Part shown: positions 8,192 to 32,140 of the stretch, one piece after another
Position numbering within the stretch: position 1 is the first letter of the stretch
Layout: every line of letters begins with the position of its first letter
Origin: Clostridia bacterium
Lineage (GTDB): Bacteria > Bacillota > Clostridia > Lachnospirales > Anaerotignaceae
Length of the DNA: 32,140 nucleotides
Direction: 5' to 3'
NCBI GenBank assembly: GCA_029098265.1
Contig: JAQXNZ010000191.1
Coordinates: 1-32,140, forward strand
Position numbers and translations under genes: made by a program
Notes under the pieces: model-generated
Told to the model about the DNA's origin: nothing
Databases searched by the model: none
What the model saw: the letters and a program-made list of their open reading frames with translations, nothing else

Positions 8192-8324
8192 TGAAAAAAG
8201 CCTCCTTAAAATAATTAGATAATATTAAAAAATAACATGACCTTTAAAGCCATGCAAATAACTGAAATAATGATATTCTGCACAGATGCGCCAAACACGC
8301 TCTGTATTGCTTTAGCTTTTTGTA

Positions 8325-8354
8325 ATTATAGCAACGGCAAAGCGCATTCGTCAA
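8325..8354 (-). promoter_or_regulatory. Promoter of serC-serA-DUF1015 operon (TTGACG-18-TATAAT)
   Basis: Reverse complement of CGTCAA (8349-8354) and ATTATA (8325-8330). Confidence 0.65.
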
Positions 8355-8636
8355 GTAAAACGCTTTATCTGCATACAGTATATAGCGCCGACAATTTTGA
8401 TAGGAATTCGACGAAATATAAACAAACATTATCAAACAAAATTTGTAAAACAAGAAAAATATTTATATATTTCAAAAAATAATTAAAAAAAGTATCCTCG
8501 ATAACACTAATATATAAATATTAACCAAAAAATCAAATTTCAAAAGACATTTGTCCGTGAGTGAAAAATAGAGACTTTTACGCCATTTCAGGCAGTCTAT
8601 CCTTGCCGTAGGATATATTTCTCACATCGGCATAAA

Positions 8637-9619: not shown

Positions 9620-9832
9620 CTTGAATAGGAAAATTATTTGGCGTAAAACCGCCTTACTGCTGCTAATAACTCCGAAACGCCTTCGAAGTTATATTGCCTG
9701 CGGTCAGTCTCATATAAAAAGCCCCTTATCCGTGCAGACAAGGGGCTCAAGTGCTCTTTATATAAGTCTCCTCGGCGGGCAGGACTGATGTCCTTTATGC
9801 TTTCGCACCTGCTGTCTGCGGCAATATTCAAC
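9620..9832 (-). ncRNA. Ribosomal protein L10 leader
   Basis: Minus strand GCCGCAGACAGCAGGTGCG...CCTGCCCGCCGAGGAGAC...GAGACTGACCGCAGGCAATATAACTTCG in the rplJ 5' UTR; matches the known L10 leader layout. Confidence 0.8.
9716..9747 (-). terminator. Terminator-like hairpin inside L10 leader (possible attenuator)
   Basis: Minus strand GAGCCCCTT-gtctgcacggat-AAGGGGCTTTTTA. Confidence 0.6.
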
Positions 9833-9838
9833 TATTCG

Positions 9839-9867
9839 ATTATATATCAAATATCAATTCCTGTCAA
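9839..9867 (-). promoter_or_regulatory. Perfect-consensus promoter for rplJ-rplL (TTGACA-17-TATAAT)
   Basis: Reverse complement of TGTCAA (9862-9867) and ATTATA (9839-9844), in the rplA-rplJ gap. Confidence 0.85.
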
Positions 9868-31301: not shown

Positions 31302-31345
31302 TACAGCCCCAAAAGTTACATATAGCTTTTGGGGCTGTTTTTAGT
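31302..31345 (+). terminator. Rho-independent terminator after mecA
   Basis: CAGCCCCAAAAG-ttacatatag-CTTTTGGGGCTG-TTTTTAG. Confidence 0.95.
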
Positions 31346-31348
31346 TTA

Positions 31349-32035
31349 TAGGCTTACAGAAGCCTAGGCTTTATATCGATTGTTATACACACTCCGATGC
31401 ATTCCTTTTGCGCTCTGACGAGCGCCAATACCTTGGGGAGAGGCAACAGCTTAAATTGCGAAGTCCGCAGTTTCCTGTCCTCTGTTCGCTTGCCTTGCCT
31501 TGCTCACTACTGTTCGCAATTCTGCGCAGCTCACAGAAAGTCGCTCTCCCTGCATCTGCCACCGGCAGCGGTCGAGCTTATTTCCCCAATCCCCCTCTCC
31601 TTTCTTGGACACGCTTCAAACCCAAACAAACCTGTCTTTTGGTCGGCTGATTAACAGTTATACATTCGCGAACTTCGCCCGCGGCACTGTTTTACAAAAT
31701 ATGTCGTAATGCAATCCACGAGGATAAGGGCTATAGCTTCAGACTGCTGTGCACAACAGTTACCCGGACGCTAGGTCGGGAATGTATTGCCATGAATTGG
31801 CTAAATAAATATCCGACTTGTTTGGGTTTAAAGCGTCGCCCAAAAGGGATTGGGGGACGTTGGGGGAAAGGGAATTCGGGCTTCGCAACTCCGAGATTTC
31901 CCTTTCCCCCGACATAACCCCACTCGGAGAGTGGAGAAACATAAATTTGAAGCCGAGGCTTCAGACAGCTAAAAGTTACTGCAATGGAGTGTGCAGAAAC
32001 TCATCTTTACGCCTCGGCATCGTGATGCCTCTTTA
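31349..32035. other. Long non-coding, highly self-complementary intergenic region (structured RNA or repeat element)
   Basis: GCGCTC-TGAC-GAGCGC (31410-31425); GGGAGAG...AATTGCGAA / TTCGCAATT...CTCTCCC (about 31436-31550); ACGCTTCAAACCCAAACAA (31611-31629) / TTGTTTGGGTTTAAAGCGT (31818-31836); CCCCAATCCC (31584-31593) / GGGATTGGGG (31846-31855); GGGGGAAAGGGAA / TTTCCCTTTCCCCC (about 31862-31910); TGAAGCC-GA-GGCTTCA (about 31949-31964). Confidence 0.7.
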
Positions 32036-32140
32036 CTAAATATTTTTAAAATACATGAAAAACGGCTTCAAAAACTCAAATCCCCGTTCTACCTCGTCCA
32101 GTATGGAGCGGTCAAACAGGCTGTCCGTAATTCTGTATTC
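32036..32140 (-). CDS. 3' end of a minus-strand CDS truncated by the window edge
   Basis: Open frame ...EYRITDSLFDRSILDEVERGFEFLKPFFMYFKNI* ending in TAG at 32036-32038. Confidence 0.6.
   Translation of the reverse strand, partial: EYRITDSLFDRSILDEVERGFEFLKPFFMYFKNI

Follow-up and report, generated by a model that had tools for sequence, protein, structure and literature searches.

We found that the approximately 690 bp of non-coding DNA between the mecA terminator and a truncated convergent gene, near the end of the window (the whole stretch of DNA that was analyzed, 32,140 nucleotides long), very probably represents one copy of a dispersed, structured, non-autonomous, and non-coding repeat. 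This copy, a mosaic palindrome at 31339 to 32035, is recognized by its recurrence in approximately 40 places of the genome, by the much shorter spacers (approximately 50 to 200 bp) of congeners, and by an end motif, TTTAGTTTATCGGCATC, that occurs 12 times in the same genome. A preliminary description had proposed a large ornate non-coding RNA or a complex repeat. Its structured and non-coding character and the second of these readings held up, but a single large RNA did not: the region is a multicopy mosaic palindromic repeat, and it is not a single-copy RNA because approximately 40 genome places carry pieces of it. The copy number check suggested there, a search of the own genome, returned 117 matching pieces that group into these places, 29 of which are no more than 150 bp away from a contig end. 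Since the repeat breaks the assembly, its true copy number is uncertain, and it accounts for many of the contig breaks in this draft genome.

The nested complementary arms named in the preliminary description were all located in the sequence: outer arms CCCCAATCCC (31584-31593) and GGGATTGGGG (31847-31856), inner arms ACGCTTCAAACCCAAACAA (31611-31629) and TTGTTTGGGTTTAAAGCGT (31818-31836), innermost arms TACATTC (31661-31667) and GAATGTA (31780-31786), and a hairpin formed by GGGGGAAAGGGAA and TTCCCTTTCCCCC at about 31862-31910. The reported lack of a credible open reading frame was borne out as well, with frames of at most 85 amino acids that overlap one another on both strands. The strong structure claimed for the region is far beyond chance, with folding z scores of -9.1 on the forward strand and -9.8 on the reverse strand against 20 dinucleotide shuffles. 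The two strands of 31339-32035 thus fold about equally well, and similar folding of both strands is the expectation for a DNA palindrome. For the 115-nt domain said to be closed by GGGAGAG/CTCTCCC, the pairing is real but the independence is not, as this domain is a composite of half of an interrupted arm hairpin and part of a 102-bp repeat that other copies lack.

An Rfam scan (cmscan) of the window, the region, and related loci agreed with the earlier failure to match the region to tmRNA, RNase P, or 6S RNA, in that the repeat had no match at the gathering score; relaxed thresholds gave nothing but chance or long-hairpin matches. The repeat resembles ROOL, GOLLD, OLE, and HEARO in being large, structured, and non-coding, but differs from them in its lack of an Rfam match at the gathering score, and these and other Rfam RNAs are ruled out because no covariance model matched. 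The sole Rfam match in the window at the gathering score is a ribosomal protein L10 leader (RF00557) at 9706-9839 on the reverse strand. Along with MecA, this leader would point to Bacillota.

The gene on the 5' side of the repeat copy, near the window end, is mecA, as identified by a Pfam MecA match, and its terminator lies at 31303-31338. On the 3' side of the spacer stand the last 34 codons of a gene convergent with mecA and truncated by the contig end, which from its sequence we take to be DUF2461-like. In three congeners in which the two genes are also convergent neighbors, the spacer between them is about 50, 90, and 200 bp long, compared to 756 bp in the own genome. Because mecA is separated from the next gene by only about 50 to 200 bp in these congeners, this comparison identifies the window copy as an insertion between the two genes. 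The DUF2461-like gene has a single full copy in the own genome, whole in contig C169, and the final 107 bases or so of the window (32034-32140) match the end of that contig (L046, G000) without mismatch through the gene. A duplicated downstream gene is ruled out by this single full copy and by the overlap of the two contigs. The element arm beside the gene in C169 is a different version from that in the window, a difference that is either a strain variant or an assembly artifact.

Across the own genome, match starts and ends recur at set positions, and the copies are mosaics in which a core of approximately 210 bp is joined on either side to arms of three types (alpha, beta, and gamma) in many combinations. 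The outer ends differ between copies, and a target-site duplication could not be cleanly delimited. Hairpins that are hybrid or split occur frequently, and the hybrids point to recombination between arms. In the hybrid hairpins at L022, L026, and L043, the 5' side is of the gamma type and the 3' side of the beta type, and the two no longer pair.

Aligned with other copies, the window copy begins with an outer left arm (31339-31434) that recurs elsewhere and contains short hairpins, for example at 31349-31366 and 31410-31425. An alpha-type module follows on the reverse strand, its hairpin intact in L021, L023, L026, L027, and others but split here into the loop and 3' stem side (31435-31475, with loop bases GGAC at 31463-31466) and the 5' remainder (31583-31616, with box GTCC at 31607-31610), the latter recognized by alignment with other copies. 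The two parts are separated by the 102-bp repeat at 31481-31582, which has TCC at both sides and is missing in L021, L023, L031, and L032. Since it is TCC-flanked, is missing in some copies (L023, for example), stands alone at L048 and L054, and is also found in a congener locus (L060), the alignments mark 31481-31582 as a different repeat that splits the alpha hairpin. Outside the window this roughly 100-bp repeat is stand-alone or tandem (L048, 1958-2183; L054, 1991-2090; L060 of congener G002, 278-689), and a CATCTGCCACCGGCAG-like motif, its tail of approximately 29 bp, has matches in other genera of the family as well. With its left hairpin split, the window copy is probably no longer mobile.

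The inner palindromic core (31617-31830) has a variable center and is confined to the own species, as judged by core alignment and by a comparison with 57 other genomes of the family, which gave no match beyond the core's right edge. A 20-mer scan of other taxa gave three unrelated single matches, about the number expected by chance, and core 20-mers had no match in viral contigs; nor did the window sequence match plasmid and phage collections. To the right of the core lies an intact beta-type pseudoknot module on the forward strand (31831-31913), supported by a model R1 score of 74.8 bits and by box-loop covariation, with box GCCC at 31838-31841, a stem at about 31862-31876/31896-31910, and loop bases GGGC at 31878-31881. 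The outer right arm (31914-32035), with short hairpins at, for example, 31948-31963 and 32016-32029, recurs in other copies and is the part that has a different version beside the same gene in C169.

Each of the three arm types carries a module of approximately 75 nt, which was reached through weak matches of the beta hairpin in other genera. It consists, in order, of RGCGT followed by a 4-nt box (GCCC, GGCC, or GTCC), a G-rich spacer, a long variable stem, a 17-nt loop (GGGCTTCGYAACTCCGA, with GGCC and GGAC variants), and the complementary stem. The stems are about 10 to 16 bp long, and their sequence diverges widely while pairing is kept. Model R1 detected the module 26 times in the own genome, 21 times in G066, 16 in G289, 11 in G003, 10 in G006, 9 in G214, 7 in G328, and 4 in G181, and once each in G001, G072, and G371; the remaining 15 genomes of this search had no copy. 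Of 392 genomes of the order that were screened with a pattern, 10 had a match, and the reversed control gave 5 matches in all. By the combined evidence of pattern and model, the module occurs in six genera (g1, g4, g13, g15, g80, and g105) of three families. A phylum-wide search, which was insensitive since it scored just 12 candidates per genome, found the module in the own genome alone.

A head-to-head arrangement was seen in 22 of 25 instances of neighboring modules. For most of the doublets examined, the intervening core is a long palindrome, of different sequence in different genera. Elements of the congener G003 are approximately 350 bp long and carry one module each, together with a series of covarying hairpins whose loops are conserved. 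Among these (L209-L219), the terminal stems covary and the conserved hairpin loops are CCTTTAAAAAGG and GCGACTTGTAAAGCCGC; none of the seven scanned matched Rfam. Literature searches with the loop sequence found nothing relevant, and as far as we could find, the module and the repeat family are undescribed.

The box of the module covaries with the four bases at the start of its loop, as GCCC-GGGC, GGCC-GGCC, and GTCC-GGAC. Of 78 distinct model R1 matches in which both parts can be read, 75 are complementary; four of these rely on G-U-type wobbles and none on A-C. With a pattern that leaves both variable bases free, all 42 distinct sequences are complementary (18 expected; none of 10,000 shuffles did as well), a figure that is not a strict probability since copies are related, yet pair types differ within single genomes and between separate genera. 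In viral contigs, where this pattern matches by chance, box and loop are not associated, which provides a negative control. On this covariation evidence, the box and the loop form a pseudoknot.

The types of mismatch bear on whether the module is maintained as DNA or as RNA. At module stem positions there are 572 Watson-Crick pairs, 8 G-T, 6 A-C, and 18 others, and the near-equal numbers of G-T and A-C suggest maintenance at the DNA level. In the G003 helices the corresponding numbers are 9 and 2, and in the pseudoknot 4 and 0, so that the overall count of 21 to 8 over stems, pseudoknot, and G003 helices, in which the contributions are not independent, leans toward RNA. We therefore considered that the module might be a functional structured RNA, either a small RNA or a guide-RNA-like scaffold, that is carried on dispersed elements and whose pseudoknot acts as RNA with a protein encoded elsewhere. 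The asymmetric conserved loop, box-loop covariation with wobbles of the G-U type and none of the A-C type, the G003 chains of covarying, conserved-loop hairpins with their excess of G-T, and syntenic placements that are in some cases common to different species all fit such an RNA. It is at odds with the balance of G-T and A-C in the module stems, with a window copy in which no promoter-like site was found, and with an own genome rich in hybrid and split hairpins, one hairpin of the window copy itself being broken. We regard this reading as possible but improbable.

Gene neighbors are shared across species by elements L021 and L218, by L189 and L225, and by L196 and L228, and some element placements may be old or preferred. 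At every locus examined, the element is intergenic. This location, the five terminator-like sites in the region compared to 1.2 expected, and the position of three of four G006 loci between convergent genes would also suit a large transcription terminator or an mRNA-stabilizing 3' element serving the flanking genes. We consider this very unlikely, since own-genome copies located at contig ends adjoin gene starts no less often than gene ends (16 versus 13), which leaves a strong 3'-end preference unsupported, mecA already has its own terminator, and the size of the element is far above what this function needs.

Many repetitive extragenic palindromic (REP)-like repeats are regarded as miniature elements that Y1 transposases mobilize. 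Y1 genes were not found in G066 (71% complete) or G328, both of which contain the module; the one Y1 match in the own genome is broken by a stop, several module-free genomes have Y1 transposases, and no module adjoined the Y1 genes at 20 loci examined. A RAYT or Y1 partner is thus ruled out, as its distribution does not track the module and no module adjoins it. No open reading frame recurs next to the copies, so that mobilization, if any, would be in trans.

One copy was found outside chromosomes. In L328, a tailed-phage contig, a G003-type element that is nearly identical through the module lies at 8323-8398 on the reverse strand, with a virion structural gene on one side and a tail-fiber-like gene on the other. 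This similarity is strong evidence for movement between chromosome and phage. Other viral matches to the pattern were dismissed, as only that in L328 scores as a real module. The failure to find a mobilizer, the extensive mosaicism and hybrid hairpins, and several G003 stems that covary without intermediates could instead indicate a selfish palindromic repeat that is passive, having no dedicated enzyme and spreading through homologous recombination and slippage in replication alone, its palindromes kept perfect by template-switch correction. This leaves unexplained the phage copy, the conservation of the loop in three families, and the covariation of box and loop outside the long stem, and we think it rather unlikely.

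In organization, the closest known elements are the CGTC-tagged REPs of Proteobacteria, Chlorobi, Bacteroidetes, Spirochaetes, and Thermotogae, dispersed palindromic hairpins with 8- to 9-bp stems, 4- to 5-nt loops, and an unpaired CGT-type head that occur mainly as head-to-head dimers and have no known transposase (PMC3733652). Dispersed hairpins, a CGT-type head, and head-to-head doublets are common to both, but the module has stems of about 10 to 16 bp, a conserved 17-nt loop, and a head-loop pseudoknot. Compared to a CGTC (or TGTC/CCTC) head, some module heads read GCGTC and others GCGTG. Because of these stem and loop lengths, and because the CGTC-tagged REPs are reported from other phyla, we do not count the module among them. 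Like GTAG REPs and REPINs with RAYT (PMC3116915, PMC2817692), the elements are intergenic, multicopy, and non-autonomous and form inverted hairpin doublets (22 of 25), but the module head is RGCGT plus GCCC, GGCC, or GTCC rather than GTAG, and Y1 presence does not track the module. Palindromic motifs combined in varying orders recall BIMEs, whose units are far smaller than the 300- to 800-bp repeats with a species-specific core seen here. As in MITEs, the elements are non-coding, multicopy, arranged as inverted repeats, and located between genes; no autonomous partner was established among Y1 transposases and the reading frames beside copies, nor were clean terminal repeats or a target duplication, and while the end motif recurs 12 times, the ends vary between copies.

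The account that we favor, and to which we give an even chance, is a non-autonomous structured repeat whose folded single-stranded doublet is mobilized in trans. Modules usually stand head to head around a palindromic core, and this doublet would fold as a single strand, most likely as single-stranded DNA exposed in replication. A host enzyme acting in trans would recognize the pseudoknotted hairpins and move or copy the element, and arm-to-arm recombination or template switching would create the mosaics. The multiplicity of copies, the insertion beside mecA, the mixing of arms, the occurrence in six genera, the covariation, the doublets, the almost purely Watson-Crick module stems, and the similar phage copy favor mobilization in trans, whereas the failure to find a mobilizer, the variable ends with no clean target-site duplication, and the 21-to-8 count that leans toward RNA speak against it. 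It is doubtful, although conceivable, that the family represents a new class of mobile element, in which a pseudoknotted end of RNA or single-stranded DNA is read by an enzyme and which spreads among chromosomes and phages while encoding no protein.

This case shows that a spacer resembling a new large RNA can turn out to be a repeat. The family offers a testable recognition structure in the box-loop pseudoknot, several genomes rich in modules alongside relatives that have none, and a copy in a phage, and with these in hand, the partner enzyme can be sought.
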